Below are positions 9,082 to 63,134 of a stretch of DNA of 64,000 nt, in pieces. A model generated the notes under the pieces. It had not been told where the DNA came from. It worked only from the letters and a program-made list of their open reading frames with translations, and searched no databases. The DNA comes from Brevinematales bacterium (GTDB taxonomy: Bacteria > Spirochaetota > Brevinematia > Brevinematales > Thermospiraceae), in assembly GCA_013177995.1 (NCBI GenBank), contig JABLXN010000008.1, positions 1 to 64,000 on the forward strand, given 5' to 3'. Both the position numbers and the translations under genes were made by a program. The first letter of the stretch is position 1, and each line of letters starts with the position of its first letter.

Positions 9082-11121
9082 CTATCTCTCCTCCACACAA
9101 AATATCTTCCTCATATCTTCTTGAAACTTTGAAGGCTCTGCTTTTATTATTTTTCTATATTCATCAAAATCCTTATATCTCTGATCAAAATGAACAAAAC
9201 AATCTTCTATTTTCTCAAGGATCAATGGAATATTTTCTTCTTTATCCTCAAATTTATACTCTTCTGGTATTGGGACATCTTCATGGTATGCAGCACTCCC
9301 TCGTTTCCCTGTAATCACACAACAGCCCAAAATAGCTGCTTCTCTGGGAATCCGATCTTTCCCGGGATGATTACCAAAATCGATGTAGACTTTGGCTCTC
9401 TGCAAGGTTTGTATAACTCCTTCTCTGGTCATATTTTCAAGAGGGAAAAATTCAATTCTTCTCTGAGCTCTTTGGACAATTTTATTAACAAAAACTTCTC
9501 CTTTTTTTGGATTGTACACAACTATATTCTGTTTTCCAGACAAATCTGTTTCAGTTTCTAAAAAAGCACGATTCAAATACTCTGAAAGATAAAAAAGAGG
9601 CGACAAATCTTTGAAAAAAGAAAGCCCTCTTATTGAGTTGGTCATATAAAAAGAAGCCAACTTTAACATCCTATCTTTCCTATAATCATATTTTTTCATC
9701 ATCTTTCTTAAATTTTCAGGAGAAGCCAAATCATAAATTGTTTTCTTCCTCACCACTTTGCTTATTTTATTGACAATACGTTGCCACAAAAAATCTATTT
9801 TTTTACAACGACTCAAATAATAATTATCCACACTCAAAAACCAGACCCCTTTTCGGATATTTTTATACATAGAAAGTAATCTCAGCCCCTCTTTCACCTC
9901 AGGTACAATCAGAATATTTTGCTCATTATCATCTTGAGGAGAAATTTTTTTCACAAAAGGAATACCATAATGTCTATAGGCAGAAGAAACCGGATCCTCA
10001 TTATCTTTAACGTTATAGTAATACATAAAGGTATTCGCCGCCAAAACATTTCTCAAATCATAAGCCAATTGATGAAGTAATTCTGGCCCTCCCGTACTTA
10101 CATGAGCAGGACAAGCAATATAGACTTTTGAAGAAGAAAAAATCACAATCTTCTCCAGATTCTTTTTCACGTGTTCAATCCTCGGCGTATACCACAGACT
10201 CTGCAGAATAGCCTTCAATCTTAAAAACCATGTACCAAGAGGAGAAAAAGGAATCCTTATGACATTCTTCATAATTTCTATATAAAATCTTTTTTTAAAA
10301 TGAAGCTTGTATATCCATAACCAATTTCTAATATTATAAAACAGCCGTTTGTCATTCACGGTGGTAGCAGAATAATTCTGTTTTGTTTTATGAATCACAA
10401 CACTCAAAGGAGCATACACTCCCAAAAAGCCCTTTTTTGTTATTCTCAAAGTATATTCCACATCATCCGCCCAAATAAAAAAGCTTTTTATCGGCAAACC
10501 TACTTGCTCAACCACATTCTTATGAATCAACAAAGAAACAAAAGAAGAAAACGAGACTAACAATAATCTTTTTTCATCATACAAGTTAAAAGGCCTGTTT
10601 TCCACCAAGGGAGAAATCCCAGGAATATTCATAATATGGGGAGACCCATCCGTCCATATCACCTTACTACACAAAAATCCTATACGTTCTTTTCCCAATT
10701 CTTGTGATCCATACAAAAGAGTAGCCAAAGCATCTTGCATCGGAATGGTATCGTCATCCATCAACCAAAACCATTCATAACCTTTTTCATATCCTCTTCT
10801 CAACCCTTCATAAAACCCACCACTCCCCCCTACATTAACAGGCATTCTCACATAATGCAGTTTCATACCTTCTTCCTGTCCTGGCTGTGTTCGTATAAAC
10901 TCCTTCTCCCATGGTTCCTTCAATTGTTTAGGTGGCAATTCTTCTATAAACCCTTTTTCAAGAAGTAACGCTTCCGTACCATCCTGTGAAGCATTATCAA
11001 TCACATACACCGCATAAACAGGATGAGTTTGTTTTTCTATAGCCTCCAAACACTCTATCAATAATTCTTTTCGATTATATGTTACTACAACTACGCACAC
11101 ACGTTCTTTTCTATCTGTCAT
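9082..11121 (-). CDS. Two-domain glycosyltransferase: GT2 domain with a second, possibly transferase, domain
   Basis: Residues 1-320 form a GT2 domain with VVVTYNRKELL and a triple-aspartate motif W-L-M-D-D-D-T-I-P at 119-126, as seen in GlfT2-type galactofuranosyltransferases. Residues about 330-679 form a second domain starting with VYIACPAHVSTGGPELLHQL; its end (REAAILGCCVITGKRGSA) resembles the donor-binding end of GT-B enzymes. At 679 aa it is about twice a normal GT2. The 4-base overlap with glf suggests it uses UDP-galactofuranose; that is inference. Confidence 0.8.
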   Translation of the reverse strand: MTDRKERVCVVVVTYNRKELLIECLEAIEKQTHPVYAVYVIDNASQDGTEALLLEKGFIEELPPKQLKEPWEKEFIRTQPGQEEGMKLHYVRMPVNVGGSGGFYEGLRRGYEKGYEWFWLMDDDTIPMQDALATLLYGSQELGKERIGFLCSKVIWTDGSPHIMNIPGISPLVENRPFNLYDEKRLLLVSFSSFVSLLIHKNVVEQVGLPIKSFFIWADDVEYTLRITKKGFLGVYAPLSVVIHKTKQNYSATTVNDKRLFYNIRNWLWIYKLHFKKRFYIEIMKNVIRIPFSPLGTWFLRLKAILQSLWYTPRIEHVKKNLEKIVIFSSSKVYIACPAHVSTGGPELLHQLAYDLRNVLAANTFMYYYNVKDNEDPVSSAYRHYGIPFVKKISPQDDNEQNILIVPEVKEGLRLLSMYKNIRKGVWFLSVDNYYLSRCKKIDFLWQRIVNKISKVVRKKTIYDLASPENLRKMMKKYDYRKDRMLKLASFYMTNSIRGLSFFKDLSPLFYLSEYLNRAFLETETDLSGKQNIVVYNPKKGEVFVNKIVQRAQRRIEFFPLENMTREGVIQTLQRAKVYIDFGNHPGKDRIPREAAILGCCVITGKRGSAAYHEDVPIPEEYKFEDKEENIPLILEKIEDCFVHFDQRYKDFDEYRKIIKAEPSKFQEDMRKIFCVEER

Positions 11122-23624: not shown

Positions 23625-24865
23625 TTTTCATTCCCCAAAATTTTCTGATATAAAGCCATATATTTTCTTCCCACAATCTCACTGGAAAACTCTTTTTCCA
23701 CCTTTGCTCTCGCATTCTGACATAGCTTCTCATACTCTGGATAAGCTAATACCCACTCAATACCTCTCGCCAAATCCTCAGCATCATATGGTCTCGCCAA
23801 ATATCCATTTACCTCATGTTCTATCATATCTCCATTTCCACCAATATCAAACGCTACAACTGGCGTACCACACGCCAAGGATTCCATAATAGCATTCGAC
23901 AAATTCTCTTGCAAACTGGGAACCACCATTACATCAGCAGCACTATACAGAGTTACTAAACTTACCTCATCTTGAAGTTTTCCTACATAATGCACCCGAA
24001 AACCAAAATCAGGAGCACGCTTTGGTTCTCCACTTCCAAAGACAATCAGTTCAATATCATTCCCCTTGAGAAACCTAAAAGCTTCTTTCAATTCTTTAAA
24101 ACCTTTCCTCGGATCACTTGTGGCACTCATAGCTCCAAAAAGTATTAATCTTTTATTAGAGGGAAAATTCCACAGTTTTCTAGCCTTTTCCTTATCAAAG
24201 GGTTTGAAAAGATTTGTATCTATAGGATTGGGTAAAAAGACTACATTTTTCCCACGAAAAAGACTACTTTCTTTCGCGCAATTCCCAATCCACTGACTAA
24301 GCCCTACAATTGTTAGATTTTGAATTTTTTGAAAAACTCTCTCCTTGCGACACCAAACCTTTCTACTAATATCTTTTTCGCTTTGACTTCTCAAAACCCT
24401 ACATTTACCACATTTCTTCTCATAACTACCGCAACCTTCGTCGTAATGACATCCACCTGTGAAAGCCCACATGTCATGTAAACTCCATACAACCGGCTTT
24501 TTGATTCTCCCTATATCTTCTACACTCAACATCCCCGCCGCTACCCAATGTAAATGAACTATGTCCGGATTTAATTTATTTAGAATTTTCCTCACTTTTC
24601 TATTACCCCAAATAGCCGTAGAAAAAAGAGTGGGAGATCTCTTCTTATACCGCATCAATGGCAGTTGATCAAGGGGAAATCTGAAAAGATTAATAAACTT
24701 TTCTGCCTTTGTTTCTGGTCCAATGACAGTATAATCATCTCCCTGTTTGTCCTGAACCAACATATAACTTTCTACCCCAAGAGAGAGAAGAGCCCTATGA
24801 AGACGATACGCAGCTCGAGCAGCACCACCACCAGCATCAAAGGTATTTATTATAAGAACCTTCAT
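23621..24865 (-). CDS. Glycosyltransferase family 4 (WcaL-like)
   Basis: A GT-B enzyme of 414 residues. It begins with KVLIINTFDAGGGAARAAYR, has a cysteine-rich insert after TGG (CHYDEGCGSYEKKCGKC, around 140-156) typical of this subgroup, and ends with SLQENLSNAIMESLACGTPVV. I chose ATG at 24865, which forms TGATG with the pyruvyl transferase stop and has AGAGGA upstream; the GTG 6 bases earlier is less likely. It is part of the glycan operon; substrate unknown. Confidence 0.9.
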   Translation of the reverse strand: MKVLIINTFDAGGGAARAAYRLHRALLSLGVESYMLVQDKQGDDYTVIGPETKAEKFINLFRFPLDQLPLMRYKKRSPTLFSTAIWGNRKVRKILNKLNPDIVHLHWVAAGMLSVEDIGRIKKPVVWSLHDMWAFTGGCHYDEGCGSYEKKCGKCRVLRSQSEKDISRKVWCRKERVFQKIQNLTIVGLSQWIGNCAKESSLFRGKNVVFLPNPIDTNLFKPFDKEKARKLWNFPSNKRLILFGAMSATSDPRKGFKELKEAFRFLKGNDIELIVFGSGEPKRAPDFGFRVHYVGKLQDEVSLVTLYSAADVMVVPSLQENLSNAIMESLACGTPVVAFDIGGNGDMIEHEVNGYLARPYDAEDLARGIEWVLAYPEYEKLCQNARAKVEKEFSSEIVGRKYMALYQKILGNEK

Positions 24866-26013: not shown

Positions 26014-27167
26014 AACATAAACCTCGCCTTAAACCGATAAAATTTCATAGCAACATTATCTTTTATCATGTATAACAAAAAGTTCCATACATCCTGAAAC
26101 CTTGGTCGCCCACTATAATCGTGAATACAATGATTACAGACATTTTTAACAATATTTTTACGATATTCAATATTTTTTCTGTCAAAAAAGATCTTTTTCC
26201 CCTTTTCTACACGCAAACTCCCAAGACTATCACTTGCCACAGCACAATAATAAATGTTGCCTTTTGAATCCAAGGTAATACCCTCCTCTTGCCAATAACA
26301 ACCAAGCATTCGTTTCGGTTTTTCTGAACAGAGCCATTTAAAAATAGCATAATACTTGAACCTATCTGACAAATGTTCTGAATGATGCATAAGATAATGA
26401 AAAAACTCTATGGCACTTTGCCTAAAAGGAGCCTCCATCACAGAATATTGCTCCCTCAAATCATAATTTCCTATTCTCTTATTCTCAATTCCTAAACGGT
26501 ATTTGATATTATACTTTTTTCTTTTAGCATATGTATCCAGTTCTACTAAATAATTGACATTTTGTTTAACAATAGTACAAGCTACGTCATAACTATCACA
26601 ATATTTGGCTTGATCTCTTATAATTTCATCAATAGAAGCAACTGTCTTTTCAAAGACATTTTCTCTTCCTCTTACAGCATCGTGAATCTTCCCAATACCA
26701 TCAAGAGAAATAGATACATGAAAAAGGATTCCTCTCTTTTTGCATGCATCATAAATTTTTTGAACATGCAAAAGCAATCTCTGAGGAATAAAACCGTTAG
26801 ATATAATGTTCAGATACTTCAAAGATGGTAAATTTAAAATTTTCTCTGCATACGCAGGAAGATTCGAAACAAGCGAAGGCTCTCCTCCATTTATACCTAC
26901 CGATTCAACCTTCTTAAAAATATCATCCTTCATAAACTTTGCAAACTCTTCAACAGAAAACTCGTTTTTATGATCCATTCGCCAAACATTACACATCACA
27001 CATCTTGAGTTACATCGATAGGTTATAGGAAGTTGTAAAACCTTAGGATATTTCTTTCTGCCGCCATTTGGAGAAAACAAATTTGCCGCGAATAAAAAAT
27101 ACAAAACTTTCCCTAGTAAAAAAAACTTCTTATTTTTTTTAATTAGCCTAATTAAAAATTTTCCCAT
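26010..27167 (-). CDS. Radical SAM protein with SPASM-like C terminus, in polysaccharide locus
   Basis: The cluster-binding motif C-N-S-R-C-V-M-C gives CxxxCxxC at residues 52, 56 and 59. NGGEPSL follows near 100. Further cysteines (C-Y-W-Q-E near 300 and C-N-H-C-I-H-D-Y near 350) resemble a SPASM/twitch auxiliary cluster region. I chose ATG at 27167 (385 aa), with AAAGG upstream. In glycan loci such enzymes may modify sugars or act on lipid carriers, but no function can be given here. It overlaps genes on both sides and is very AT-rich. Confidence 0.8.
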   Translation of the reverse strand: MGKFLIRLIKKNKKFFLLGKVLYFLFAANLFSPNGGRKKYPKVLQLPITYRCNSRCVMCNVWRMDHKNEFSVEEFAKFMKDDIFKKVESVGINGGEPSLVSNLPAYAEKILNLPSLKYLNIISNGFIPQRLLLHVQKIYDACKKRGILFHVSISLDGIGKIHDAVRGRENVFEKTVASIDEIIRDQAKYCDSYDVACTIVKQNVNYLVELDTYAKRKKYNIKYRLGIENKRIGNYDLREQYSVMEAPFRQSAIEFFHYLMHHSEHLSDRFKYYAIFKWLCSEKPKRMLGCYWQEEGITLDSKGNIYYCAVASDSLGSLRVEKGKKIFFDRKNIEYRKNIVKNVCNHCIHDYSGRPRFQDVWNFLLYMIKDNVAMKFYRFKARFML

Positions 27168-45125: not shown

Positions 45126-45731
45126 TGTCGTTCCACATTTATCTCGAATGGTTGTTTTCACACAAAATTGAATACTTATTCAATCATCTTTTCTCTTTCA
45201 GTTTTGGATTCTTTTTGTTACCCATCTTTTTTCCACGAAGCGCTCCCGCGCGGGACAAAAGGGGCTTCGCCCCTTTTGAAAACCCCACCCCGCCCCTGCG
45301 GCAACAGGGAGCCAAGAAGCGCTTTGTCCTCGTCGCATGCTACGCATGCGCCTCGGACGGACCATGGGCCGCTTTTGCGGGCAAGAGAAAGACCTCTTCT
45401 CTCCAGGGGAAGTTCTTCCTCCGTGGGCGACCTTGCCTCGTCCCCAGGACTTCGGCAACCACACCTCGTCCTCCTGACTTCGGAAGAAGAGCGCCCACCT
45501 CGCTCCGCCGATTCCCCGCTCAGGCGGGGGCCCCGCGGCTCCGCTTCGGTGGGCTTGCGGGTAAAAGCAACACAAGAGGTCGCCACGGGTGCCTCCTGCA
45601 CCCTCACTCCGGAAGGACTTCCCCATTGGTAGTACAAAGACCCATCTTCAAAACCGCAAAAGCGGCCCGGCGGGTACTGAGCGAAGTCGAAGTGGGGTAC
45701 AGAAAAAAAGGGGGTGATAAAAGAACAGGGC
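45126..45731 (+). repeat. Damaged copy of the 600-bp GC-rich element
   Basis: The left end has TTTGTCGTTCCACAT followed by an AT-rich lead and then GC-rich DNA matching the complete copy at 52985-53581 over most of its length. Shared parts include the hairpin word CGCATGCTACGCATGCG, the pair GCCGCTTTTGCGG (45368-45380) and CCGCAAAAGCGGC (45654-45666), and a single CTGAGCGAAGTCGAAG unit. The right inverted end is missing after about 45731. Confidence 0.75.
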
Positions 45732-45819
45732 CTTCTGTCACCAGGTCCGCAGGGCACGTGTCACCCCGGGGCTTCTCCTACGGCGCACCGCAGGCAGGGG
45801 CGGGGCAGGGGCGTTCAGC

Positions 45820-45990
45820 CACAAGGGGGGCTTTCTGAGACCACAAACGTGGGGCTATAACCCTGTTTCAGCAAAACACCCCATGGCCATTGCTATCACC
45901 TTGTTTCAGCAAATACACCACCTGGTTAAACGTTTAACCTTTCTCTATAACCCCCCATGGCCATTGCTATTACTCTGTTTCAGCAAAAGC
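45820..45990 (-). repeat. Short-repeat cluster related to 29.85-30.02 kb
   Basis: Read on the minus strand it has three TTTGCTGAAACA-type words and a perfect 16-bp palindrome GGTTAAACGTTTAACC (45924-45939). The order and spacing match the plus strand at 29850-30020, so these are two copies of one composite segment. Confidence 0.7.
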
Positions 45991-46150
45991 CCCGCGGCTC
46001 CACTTCGGTGGGCTTGTGAGAAAAGCAACAAAAAACGTCGCCCCAGGTGCCTCCTGCATCCTCTCTTTGGAAGGACTTCCCCCTTACGACAAAGGGCACA
46101 CAACCGCAAAAGCGGTCTGGTGGGTACTGAGCGAAGTCGAAGTGGGGTAC
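45988..46150 (+). repeat. Partial copy of the right half of the 600-bp element
   Basis: From CCCCGCGGCTC to GTCGAAGTGGGGTAC it repeats 45531-45710 with scattered differences, including a CCGCAAAAGCGG word at 46104-46115 and a CTGAGCGAAGTCGAAG unit. It ends beside the hydA terminator. Confidence 0.7.
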
Positions 46151-46157
46151 TGAAAAA

Positions 46158-46186
46158 AAAGGGAGTGCCGAAACACTCCCTTTTTT
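46158..46186 (-). terminator. Terminator of the hydrogenase operon
   Basis: Stem GGGAGTG (46161-46167) and CACTCCC (46174-46180) around a 6-base loop, with T runs on both sides, so it could work in both directions. It starts just after the hydA stop. Confidence 0.88.
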
Positions 46187-52984: not shown

Positions 52985-53581
52985 TGTCGTTCCACATTCA
53001 TACAGAATGGTTATCTTCACACAAAAACTGAATACTCGTTTTACCATCTTTTCTCTTCTAAATTTTTAGCTCTTTTTGTTACCCATTTTTCTTTTTCCAC
53101 GAAGCGCTCCTGCGTGGAACAAAAGGGACGTTGTCCTCGTCGCATGCTACGCATGCGCCTCGGACGGATAGTGTGCCGCTTTTGCGGGCAAGGAGAAAAA
53201 CATCCTCTCCTTCCAGGGGAAGTCCTTCCTCCGTGGGCGACATTGCCTCGTCCTTGAGACTTCAGCAACCACAACTCGTCCTACTGAACCTTGCAGCCAA
53301 CTTTATAAACTTTACAAACTTTCAACTTTCAACTGATACGCACCCCACTCCGGAAGGACTTTCCCCTTACAACAAAGGACACACGACCGCAAAAGCGGCC
53401 CGGTGAGCCTCCTGAGCGAAGTCGAAGGAGAGCACTGAGCGAAGTCGAAGGAGAGCACTGAGCGAAGTCGAAGTGGGGTACAGAAAAAAGGGATTGAAAG
53501 AACAGAGATTTCTCGTGTTATTTCCCTGTTCATAAGAAATGTGGAAATAGGTATTAGTTTCATATGTGGAACGACACGACA
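52985..53581 (+). repeat. Complete copy of a 600-bp non-coding element with inverted ends
   Basis: The ends are inverted copies of TGTCGTTCCACAT (near 52985-52997 and 53564-53576). Just outside, GATATA(G/T)CTTGGTTTTTG occurs on both sides (52967-52984 and 53582-53599), 17 of 18 bases identical, like a target duplication. Inside are AT-rich arms, a GC-rich core with the hairpin word CGCATGCTACGCATGCG, inverted words GCCGCTTTTGCGG (53175-53187) and CCGCAAAAGCGGC (53387-53399), and a 23-bp tandem repeat. No protein is encoded. Broken relatives are at 45.1-46.2 kb. Confidence 0.75.
53412..53475 (+). repeat. Tandem repeat, 23-bp unit, about 2.8 copies
   Basis: Units CTGAGCGAAGTCGAAGGAGA plus GCA start at 53412, 53435 and 53458; the third is cut after GTCGAAG. 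Single units of the same word occur at 45678 and 46124. The core GAGCGAAGTCGAAG is a word I have seen dispersed in genomes of other phyla. Confidence 0.85.
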
Positions 53582-54388: not shown

Positions 54389-54589
54389 GAGACCCTTGCA
54401 CGGGTGCTTTCTTGCCCTTTTTAGGTCAGGGGCTATGCCCCTCTTCCCCGTTTTTTCTGTTTACAGGGGCTTATTTGTCTTTTCTATTCAAAAAATAGGA
54501 TTATTGATTACGAAAAGAAATATTTTTATACTATTTTTGTTTTTTTTATTCCCTTTTTTGAGACCTTCGCACATTCGTGCGAAGGTCTC
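54389..54589 (+). mobile_element. 200-bp MITE-like element, copy 1, with 9-bp target duplication
   Basis: Begins GAGACCCTTGCACGGG and ends with the hairpin GAGACCTTCGCAC-ATTC-GTGCGAAGGTCTC, so the first bases and the last bases are inverted copies. AAAATATTC is present on both sides (54380-54388 and 54590-54598), a clean 9-bp target duplication. Inside are a GC hairpin TCAGGGGC-TAT-GCCCCTCT-like word and an AT-rich half. No coding capacity. Confidence 0.85.
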
Positions 54590-56774: not shown

Positions 56775-56976
56775 GAGACCCTTGCACGGATGTTTTCTTT
56801 GCCTGTCTGGGTCAGGGGCTACGCCCCTGAAACCCCGATTTTTCTGTTTACAAGGGCCGGTTTGTCTTTTTTATTCAAAAAAATTGGTTTATTTATTACA
56901 GCACGGAATATTTTGATACTAATTTTTGTTTCTTTATTACTTTTTTGAGACCTTTGCACATTCGTGCAAAGGTCTC
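56775..56976 (+). mobile_element. 200-bp MITE-like element, copy 2
   Basis: Same ends as copy 1: GAGACCCTTGCACGG at the left and GAGACCTTTGCAC-ATTC-GTGCAAAGGTCTC at the right, with the TCAGGGGC-TAC-GCCCCTGA hairpin. The flanks (TAAATTATC and TTTAGTGTG) do not match, so no target duplication is visible. Confidence 0.82.
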
Positions 56977-57126
56977 TTTAGTGTGCTTTTTTATTCATTC
57001 TGAGAGAAAATCTTTTTGTTTTGAGGTTCTCATTTCTCTTTGTCCCCCTTTTTTGAGCTTATGAGGGGGATTTTTTCTTCTTTTGCCCAAGGGCAAAGGT
57101 TATTCTCACGGATGCAGGGCATCTCT

Positions 57127-59484: not shown

Positions 59485-59684
59485 GAGACCCTTGCACGGG
59501 TGTTTTCTTCCCCTGTTTGGGTCAGGGGCTGCGCCCGTCTCCCCCGTTTTTTCTGTTACAAGGGCTTATTTGTCTTTTTTATTCAAAAAAATAGGATTAT
59601 TGATTACGAGAAGAAATATTTTTATACTATTTTTTGTTTTCTTATTACTTTTTCGAGACCTTCGCACATTCGTGCAAAGGTCTC
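59485..59684 (+). mobile_element. 200-bp MITE-like element, copy 3
   Basis: GAGACCCTTGCACGGG at the left, and GAGACCTTCGCAC-ATTC-GTGCAAAGGTCTC at the right with two mismatched stem positions. Flanks (TTTAGGTTT and GAAATCTTT) do not match. It borders the truncated SH3-like gene. Confidence 0.82.
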
Positions 59685-60776: not shown

Positions 60777-60949
60777 TATTTTCAGGGGGTGTTTTTTGAG
60801 GATTTTTTTGAAAAGGCTCAAAAGAGGGCAAAGATCTCATCTTATTTCGACCAGCATGCTCTTTGCTGAAACAATGTAATAACCATAGTTTTTATACTTC
60901 ATAGAGGGGCGACATTTCTCTTGAATCACGAGAAGAGTCGGAAGAGACC
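60777..60949. other. Gap between flaA and the peptide gene promoter
   Basis: No gene is seen. It contains one TTTGCTGAAACA-type word (60864). Confidence 0.55.
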
Positions 60950-60977
60950 TTGACAAAAAAAAATACCCCATTATAAT
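60950..60977 (+). promoter_or_regulatory. Strong promoter of the 24-aa peptide gene
   Basis: TTGACA (60950-60955), 16-base spacer, TATAAT (60972-60977), both perfect. Confidence 0.85.
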
Positions 60978-61022
60978 AACACGACTCATGAGTCAAAAAA
61001 ATACTCATACAGGAGGCCAAGA

Positions 61023-61097
61023 ATGGTGAAAAGAAAAAAAGTGGTTAAGGTAGTTATCGGAAAAGAAAACTGTATGACTTCTGGTAGATACAAGTAA
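61023..61097 (+). CDS. 24-residue peptide, candidate RiPP precursor
   Basis: An ATG preceded by AGGAGG with 6 bases between starts a 24-residue frame (MVKRKKVVKVVIGKENCMTS then G-R-Y-K) that ends in TAA. A perfect promoter lies 45 bp upstream. A basic leader and a C-terminal part with Cys, Thr, Ser and Tyr precede a radical SAM/SPASM gene by 56 bp and a MATE exporter gene. PqqA has similar size and place. Function is inferred from position, promoter and ribosome binding site. Confidence 0.6.
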   Translation: MVKRKKVVKVVIGKENCMTSGRYK

Positions 61098-61153
61098 AAA
61101 CAAAAAACCACCGGTGGTTTAATTCTGGAGTAAATAAGGAGAAAATACAGTAT

Positions 61154-61781
61154 ATGTCTATATATGTTAATGTAGAAGATTTGTGTTATGAATCTGTGTT
61201 TCGTTCCTGCCAAATAGAAATCACGGGAAAATGTAATTTTCATTGCAAGCATTGTCGCGCGGCAGAAGATCCCTGCTCTCATATGGAGGAGGCCGTGTTT
61301 AAAAAAGCACTTGAATTTGCAGACCCCCAAGATGATTCATTTATTCTTGTTGTTTCTGGTGGAGAACCTTTTCTTCATCCGCTTTTGCCAAAATTACTTC
61401 ATATAGCTTCTGTAGATTTCGGAATAAAACGTATATGTGTAACGACAAATGGGTCTTGTTATGAAAAAAACCTTCTTGAGACAATAAAAGAAACGAGACC
61501 CTTGCACGGATGTTTTCTTCCCCTGTTTGGGTCAGGGGCTACGCCCCTGAAACCCCGCTTTTTCCATTTACAAGGGTTTATTTGTCTTTTTTTGTTCAAA
61601 GGAATAGTTTTATTTATTACGTTAAGGAACATTTTTATACTATTTTTTGTTTTTTACTACTTTTTTGAGACCTTTGCACATTCGTGCAAAGGTCTCAAAA
61701 CGATTATGCGGAGGTTGCAGAGCAAGGGCTTTTGCTTCTTCGGGTGATCTTTTGGGAGAAGATCCTCTATGCTGGAGGTGA
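61154..61781 (+). pseudogene. Radical SAM/SPASM gene, interrupted by a 200-bp element and missing its middle
   Basis: The 5' part (61154-61494, 113 residues) has the radical SAM motif CxxxCxxC (C27, C31, C34) and S-G-G-E-P-F. Copy 4 of the 200-bp element follows (61495-61696). In another frame after it, 61698-61781 reads [19 protein letters not shown] then G-E-D-P-L-C-W-R and stop, the end of a SPASM enzyme. About half the protein, between the two parts, is gone. The remnant lies between a 24-aa peptide gene and a MATE gene (5 bp on). Confidence 0.85.
61495..61696 (+). mobile_element. 200-bp MITE-like element, copy 4, inside the radical SAM gene
   Basis: GAGACCCTTGCACGGATG at the left, right hairpin GAGACCTTTGCAC-ATTC-GTGCAAAGGTCTC and internal TCAGGGGC-TAC-GCCCCTGA. 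The flanks (AAAAGAAAC and AAAACGATT) do not match as target duplications. Confidence 0.85.
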
Positions 61782-61786
61782 AGTGA

Positions 61787-63085
61787 ATGAATCGAACTCT
61801 CTATTTCTTAAAGGTAGTTTCTGGTTTTTTCCTGAGTTATATCCTGGCGCGTTTAATGGAACAAACAGATATTATAATGGTTGGTTTTTTTGGAGAAAAG
61901 GCTATGGCTGCGTTTTCCATTCCCCAGAATATAATGTTTATTGATAGTTTTGTTGCTCTTTTGGTGACACCTTTTATTACCCTCTATCTTTCTCGCTCCA
62001 AATCTAAAGGAAAAGTTCAAGATATCTTTTGTTTTGTAGTGATTCTCTCACTCGCTCTCACTGTATTGGGACTTGTGGTTTATCCCCTTCTCTATGCAGG
62101 ATATCATGTCGAGTCTTCAGTAAAAAAACTCGGGGGACAATTTCTTTTTCTCATGACGATGTCTATATTTCCTCGTTTTGTTCTCTTTGGAGAAGAACTC
62201 ATTCTCTATAGTCGGGGGAAAACAAAACGGGTCTTGATGAATAATGTTATTCTTTTCCTGGTGAATATCCCCTTGAACTGGATATGTATGTTCTGGTTAT
62301 CCATGGGGGCTATAGGAAACTACGTTTCGACGGTTATTCTCTACACTCTGGGGGCTATTGACCTTTTTTTCGTGTTGGAAAAGCCATCTCTTTTCCCCTT
62401 GAAAGAAAGACTCAAAAGAATAGTGCTCTGGTTAAGGCACTACCAATTTTCCTGGGGGTGGGAGTTCTTCCGCACGCTTTCAGAGAAAGTTCTACCTCTT
62501 GTTATGCTCTGGGTAATCACGGTGTTTTTTCAGAAATCATGGATGTTAGCCCTCTATGCTATTGTTATGGGATGGAAGGCTCTTTTTTCTATGTTTCCTG
62601 TGGCTATTCTGAGAGCCACGCCCATTGTGCTCAATCATTTGTATAGGAAAAACGAGTCTTTGACACAAGAAAATCTCTCACCTTTTTTGTTTCTGAAGAC
62701 CGCTCTGGGATGGAGTGTGGTGGGAGCGGGAGTTTTTGGAGCTATTTCCTTTCTGGGAAGAGAGTGGCTTTTTCAGGTATATCATCTGGTGGGACAGGAT
62801 CTCCAAAAAGGATTTTCCCTTTTTCTTCTTTTCTGGATTCCTCTTTTCGCTCTCATGACCTTCAATGCCTTTGGGATAGGAATAGTGTATTCTGAGGAGA
62901 ATTTACGCCATTTTGCTATTGTAGACATTGTAGGAGATTGGATTTTCTTTCTCCCTCTTTTTGTGGTGGGAGCCTGGCAAAAGAATGTCTTACTTCTGTG
63001 GGGATCTTTCTGTATAAAGGAACTTTGGTTGTGCTTTTCTTTGCCTTTTGGATACAGGAAAAAAACAAAAAATTTTCTATCTTGA
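61787..63085 (+). CDS. MATE-family multidrug/peptide efflux transporter
   Basis: A 432-residue membrane protein with about 12 segments, starting ILARLMEQTDIIMVGFFGEK, the MATE/NorM-like first-helix signature, and symmetrical halves. MATE proteins export small molecules using Na+ or H+ gradients. ATG at 61787 has GGAGGT 7 bases upstream, so it is coupled to the radical SAM remnant ending 5 bp before. Its place after a peptide gene and a radical SAM gene suggests export of a modified peptide or derived cofactor. Confidence 0.85.
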   Translation: MNRTLYFLKVVSGFFLSYILARLMEQTDIIMVGFFGEKAMAAFSIPQNIMFIDSFVALLVTPFITLYLSRSKSKGKVQDIFCFVVILSLALTVLGLVVYPLLYAGYHVESSVKKLGGQFLFLMTMSIFPRFVLFGEELILYSRGKTKRVLMNNVILFLVNIPLNWICMFWLSMGAIGNYVSTVILYTLGAIDLFFVLEKPSLFPLKERLKRIVLWLRHYQFSWGWEFFRTLSEKVLPLVMLWVITVFFQKSWMLALYAIVMGWKALFSMFPVAILRATPIVLNHLYRKNESLTQENLSPFLFLKTALGWSVVGAGVFGAISFLGREWLFQVYHLVGQDLQKGFSLFLLFWIPLFALMTFNAFGIGIVYSEENLRHFAIVDIVGDWIFFLPLFVVGAWQKNVLLLWGSFCIKELWLCFSLPFGYRKKTKNFLS

Positions 63086-63134
63086 AGAGCCATCTGAAAC
63101 CACAACAGAGACAAGAGGCCAAAACCTCAAAAAC

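Follow-up and report, generated by a model that had tools for sequence, protein, structure and literature searches.

Short elements are well known to undergo deletions and exchanges between their copies, an ordinary, repeat-driven route of gene loss. The locus described here, a radical-SAM/SPASM gene broken at a short element in a Brevinematales bacterium (Spirochaetota), is a new instance of this known process. We analyzed a stretch of 64,000 nucleotides (positions 1 to 64,000 of contig JABLXN010000008.1, assembly GCA_013177995.1), hereafter the window, in which the element of interest is the fourth copy of its family.

The element resembles the miniature inverted-repeat elements (MITEs) of the IS5 family. 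Like them, it is about 200 bp long, has no credible gene of its own, carries 14-bp terminal inverted repeats, reaches a high copy number, makes a fixed-length AT-rich target duplication and is accompanied by a full-length IS5-family element whose 14-bp ends are the same. In contrast to them, its right end is a 30-nt hairpin that includes an inverted second terminal repeat. Among the Tn3-derived miniature elements (TIMEs), copies that lack duplications have been attributed to recombination between copies (PMC4133298). Our family shares with the TIMEs the many copies without duplications and the 5-bp AT-rich duplications, whereas a Tn3 origin, 38-bp ends and a low copy number are TIME features (PMC4133298). 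In Candidatus Thiomargarita nelsonii, broadly scattered MITEs interrupt metabolic genes; unlike the elements described here, those have other ends and a 10-bp duplication, and deletion between copies is not shown there (PMC4853749).

The interrupted gene, in turn, resembles the radical-SAM/SPASM maturases of the TIGR04053, AhbD and PqqE type, with CxxxCxxC and GGEP in its N-terminal part and CGGCRARA at its C-terminus. Its N-terminal part is about 30% identical to these enzymes, a likeness that indicates the class only, as the middle needed to recognize a specific family is lost.

A family of 202-bp elements and its probable parent

Copy 4 occupies 202 bp at positions 61495..61696 on the plus strand of the window, with GAGACCCTTGCACG at its left end and the hairpin GAGACCTTTGCAC-ATTC-GTGCAAAGGTCTC at its right end. 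We aligned it with the three other copies in the window, and full matches elsewhere in the genome were found at 88-97%. The terminal inverted repeats consist of GAGACCYTTGCACG at the left end and its complement at the right, the right-end hairpin also containing a second, inverted terminal repeat. The hairpin pattern occurs 177 times in the 2.38-Mb draft genome, the reversed control pattern 0 times. The family thus amounts to about 170 copies and approximately 1.5% of the genome. In the two other members of the genus that were searched the family was not recognizable, and short matches only were obtained. When the element was searched for known RNAs, no Rfam family came near its threshold.

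We extracted the flanks of 45 distinct copies and compared the two sides of each. Exact 5-bp direct repeats were present at 26 of them, against 1.0 expected from mispaired flanks, and thus the element transposes with a 5-bp duplication; a few other copies are flanked by repeats of 4, 6, 9 or 15 bp. Two of the longer exact repeats stand in place of the 5 bp: the 9-bp repeats AAAATATTC around copy 1 (window 54389..54589, plus strand) and the 15-bp repeats around the copy at L012:1501-1701. These two copies perhaps inserted between repeats that already existed. Copy 3 (59485..59684, plus strand) is without duplication. On another contig (G000:C18:10694-11315; L005, L051), at least three copies, one of them partial, are arranged head to tail in just over half a kilobase. 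A different family of repeats, which contains the motif TGAGCGAAGTCGAAG and repeated blocks of 65-94 bp, is present in the window at 45313-46163 and 53120-53494.

With 177 hairpin ends, a length of 202 bp and no credible open reading frame, the family is multi-copy and has no transposase of its own. The copies are best called non-autonomous MITEs, which we infer to be mobilized by an IS5-type element. The genome contains an autonomous element of the kind expected from an IS5-family origin. This element (L089), present on one contig, measures 1366 bp between GAGACCCTTGCACG ends, has the same 14-bp ends as the MITE and encodes a complete transposase (NF033581, IS5 family, 283 bits versus a cut-off of 140). 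Judging from its ends and its transposase, this IS5-family element is the probable parent of the MITE. The flanks of its single copy match at 4 of 5 positions and do not form an exact duplication. An IS1380 element was also considered as a parent and was rejected, since its intact copy is without the GAGACC ends and is merely a target.

Two remnants of a radical-SAM/SPASM gene

Directly to the left of copy 4 lies the N-terminal remnant of the gene (61154..61494, plus strand), comprising 113 codons plus 2 nt. Its start codon, read directly from the window, is at 61154, and the remnant was recognized with Pfam and by alignment to six homologues. It matches the Pfam Radical_SAM model PF04055 over model positions 1-99 of 166 (41.6 bits, 1.9e-10). 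Both the iron-sulphur motif CxxxCxxC (as CNFHCKHC) and GGEP are contained in this remnant; as the two are typical of a radical-SAM enzyme, we read it as the beginning of one.

The C-terminal remnant of the same gene (61698..61781, plus strand; 27 codons and a stop) is located directly 3' of the element and ends with TGA at 61779-61781. Its frame differs from that of the N-terminal part read through the element. Among the NCBIfam models it matches the extreme C-termini of SPASM models only (TIGR04053, positions 338-362 of 366; heme b synthase, positions 311-335 of 339), and between 12 and 15 of its 27 residues are identical to those of the homologues. It is this end of the gene that carries CGGCRARA, and the last three SPASM cysteines are the only ones left. 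The reading of the window and the homologue alignment agree with the 113 N-terminal and 27 C-terminal residues counted in a preliminary description of this DNA, made from the letters alone; the protein end, given there as ...SSGD, is in fact ten residues further on.

To measure what is absent, we aligned the six homologues carrying both parts and counted from the last aligned residue of the N-terminal part to the first residue of the C-terminal part. The gap was 214 residues in all five of the closest complete homologues and 198 residues in the sixth, more distant one; the first estimate had been about 200 residues. What was lost is the second half of the barrel together with the greater part of the SPASM domain. 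The alignment is gapless up to the element on both sides: at the left edge IKET stands opposite IKES, IKKA or IKGS in the homologues, and at the right edge the C-terminal residues align without gaps, for instance against YKAFCAGCRARA. Since 214 residues are gone and only the last three SPASM cysteines are left, the gene, judged from its sequence, is a pseudogene: it has neither the complete barrel nor the full set of SPASM cysteines of a functional radical-SAM/SPASM enzyme.

Elsewhere in the assembly the missing middle did not turn up: PF13186 and a profile built from the middle parts of the homologues hit only other genes. The genome yielded two other SPASM domains, and only two, each within a long open frame (401 and 518 residues). 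Another radical-SAM-like gene, with a 405-residue frame, shows weak similarity to the missing middle at 26517-26723 on the minus strand of the window. The preliminary description had pointed to related strains as the place to look for an intact gene or for two elements within it. Neither turned up. For an intact orthologue, the search covered 41 relatives, 393 genomes of the phylum, GTDB contigs, plasmids and viral contigs and gave only relatives of about 30% identity. Nor did the 393 genomes, or any other source searched, yield a strain whose gene contains two elements.

Origin of the deletion at copy 4

On this alignment, the 214 missing codons rule out a simple insertion into an intact gene, and the earlier argument that it does not fit is borne out, with the two gene parts reaching both edges of the element. 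The mechanism proposed at the same time, two elements in one gene followed by recombination between them, fits all the features of the locus while falling short of proof. We favor it as the probable origin of the deletion, if with some reserve. Two MITE copies in the same orientation would have inserted at about codons 114 and 328 of the radical-SAM/SPASM gene. Homologous recombination between them would then have deleted 214 codons (about 640 bp) together with one element, and the single element that remained would have on its left the target of one insertion and on its right that of the other. The gene would have been left as a pseudogene, while the neighboring peptide ORF and MATE exporter gene would have stayed in place. 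Both the former presence of two copies in the gene and homologous recombination as the maker of the deletion are thus things that we infer.

Several observations count in favor of recombination between two copies: the gapless edges, the absence of an exact duplication, the absence of the middle from the assembly, and the presence of one complete element, with flanks from two sites, as a deletion between two direct copies predicts. The density of the family also bears on the two-insertion step. From 177 copies, about 6 neighboring pairs in the same orientation would be expected within 1 kb, and at least 4 are seen, for example at 24411/24768 on contig C6 and at 10694/11062 on contig C18. Consequently, this step needs no special assumption.

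Copy 2 (56775..56976, plus strand) provides further support, as it has no duplication and its flanks have been exchanged. Its right flank is a remnant of an IS1380 3' end (56977..57119, plus strand), which starts exactly at TTTAG and is 89.5% identical over 143 bp to the IS1380 3' end at L090. The other half of the site is found on contig C36 (L091:1498-2178), where an IS1380 copy stops at ...AACTTTTAG and passes straight into a MITE. Placed on the uninterrupted IS1380 of contig C38, the left flank from C36 corresponds to 1497-1612 and the right flank of copy 2 to 1608-1728, and the two overlap by exactly 5 nt, TTTAG, at 1608-1612. By this comparison, the two flanks are the halves of one IS1380 insertion site, each with its own copy of the duplicated 5-mer and now joined to different partners. 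Thus, the 5-nt overlap shows that MITE copies in this genome have lost or exchanged a flank on one side, whichever enzyme was responsible.

Some observations count against recombination between two copies. The left flanking 5-mer of copy 4 is GAAAC (61490..61494, plus strand) and the right one AAAAC (61697..61701, plus strand), in a family whose rule is a 5-bp duplication. The preliminary description, drawn up without knowledge of the duplication length, held that these flanks do not match. There is indeed no exact duplication, but 4 of the 5 positions agree, so that "unmatched" was too strong a word, and a simple insertion followed by one later mutation would leave such flanks, which gives a plain insertion at an existing deletion scar a small chance; this keeps the origin of the flanks from two sites short of certain. 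Since shuffling the flanks yields pairs with at least 4 of 5 matching positions in 10.4% of cases, the flank comparison is on its own a weak argument, and the gene sequence running up to both element edges is a stronger one. Copy 4 also shows no chimeric signature: when its left and right halves were compared with 43 other copies, neither stood out, and many copies that do have duplications gave correlations just as low. The lack of a two-element strain or an intact gene in the searches described above counts on the same side.

We weighed recombination between two copies against four other explanations. The one that survives best, though we consider it unlikely, is that only one insertion ever took place and that a transposase acting at the element's end later removed the neighboring 640 bp or so. 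Such an adjacent deletion would yield the same anatomy, an intact element with one native flank and the other flank at the deletion end, and the genome does encode a transposase that is probably the parental one. However, it needs a special transposase reaction, whereas the density of copies already makes pairs common, and no feature at the copy 4 locus points specifically to it.

Marginally less probable still is a collapse in the assembly, in which two elements and the middle persist in the genome and the assembler skipped the middle and one element. The assembly is a draft of 57 contigs, and the starts of contigs C44 and C19, at least, lie within copies, which also counts against recombination between two copies. 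Yet the SPASM and homologue-profile searches did not find the middle as a separate piece of the assembly, and contig C56 runs through at least 8 copies.

We regard as improbable that the deletion came first and that a single element then inserted at the scar, its GAAAC/AAAAC duplication later mutating once. Flanks agreeing at 4/5 positions would fit this, given the family's 5-bp duplication; however, the gene parts reach within about 1 base of the element, so the scar would have to be hit almost exactly, and some 10% of random flank pairs do at least as well. Finally, an assembler misjoin of two different radical-SAM genes, each with an element, is scarcely credible even in a draft assembly with many near-identical copies, because both other SPASM domains of the genome sit in long open frames and leave no donor for the second half.

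The cassette around the broken gene

The broken gene belongs to a cassette of about 2.3 kb (60811..63125, plus strand) that also comprises a peptide ORF and a MATE exporter gene, and whose limits were set by DNA alignment with L093 and L094. In both of these, from the sister species, the whole cassette is absent and flaA and ilvB adjoin, their aligned parts being about 50-100 bp apart. The searches brought up no homologous cassette.

The peptide ORF, MVKRKKVVKVVIGKENCMTSGRYK, has 24 codons (61023..61097, plus strand) and is preceded by a strong ribosome-binding site. Based on its position and size, it is a candidate for the substrate peptide of the lost enzyme. It has no NCBIfam match; its IGxExxM stretch recalls, as we presume, PqqA, and we take this as a lead only. 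Judged by its layout, the cassette may have been a peptide-maturation system.

A wider reading is that the MITE family drives frequent gene loss, that the copies without duplications mark deletions or exchanges throughout the genome, and that a small system for peptide maturation (made up of the 24-residue peptide, the radical-SAM enzyme and the MATE exporter) was lost in this way after its acquisition. We put this forward tentatively and regard it, taken as a whole, as rather doubtful. The locus offers a clean case of recently acquired genes being eroded by short repeats that are abundant in the genome, and the copies with and without duplications form a usable set for estimating the rate of repeat recombination in a spirochaete genome.

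The MATE-type exporter gene (61787..63085, plus strand; Pfam MatE) lies downstream of the broken gene and is intact. Its product bears a distant likeness, below the cut-off, to the methanobactin exporter MbnM, and its ribosome-binding site is located within the surviving C-terminal remnant of the broken gene.
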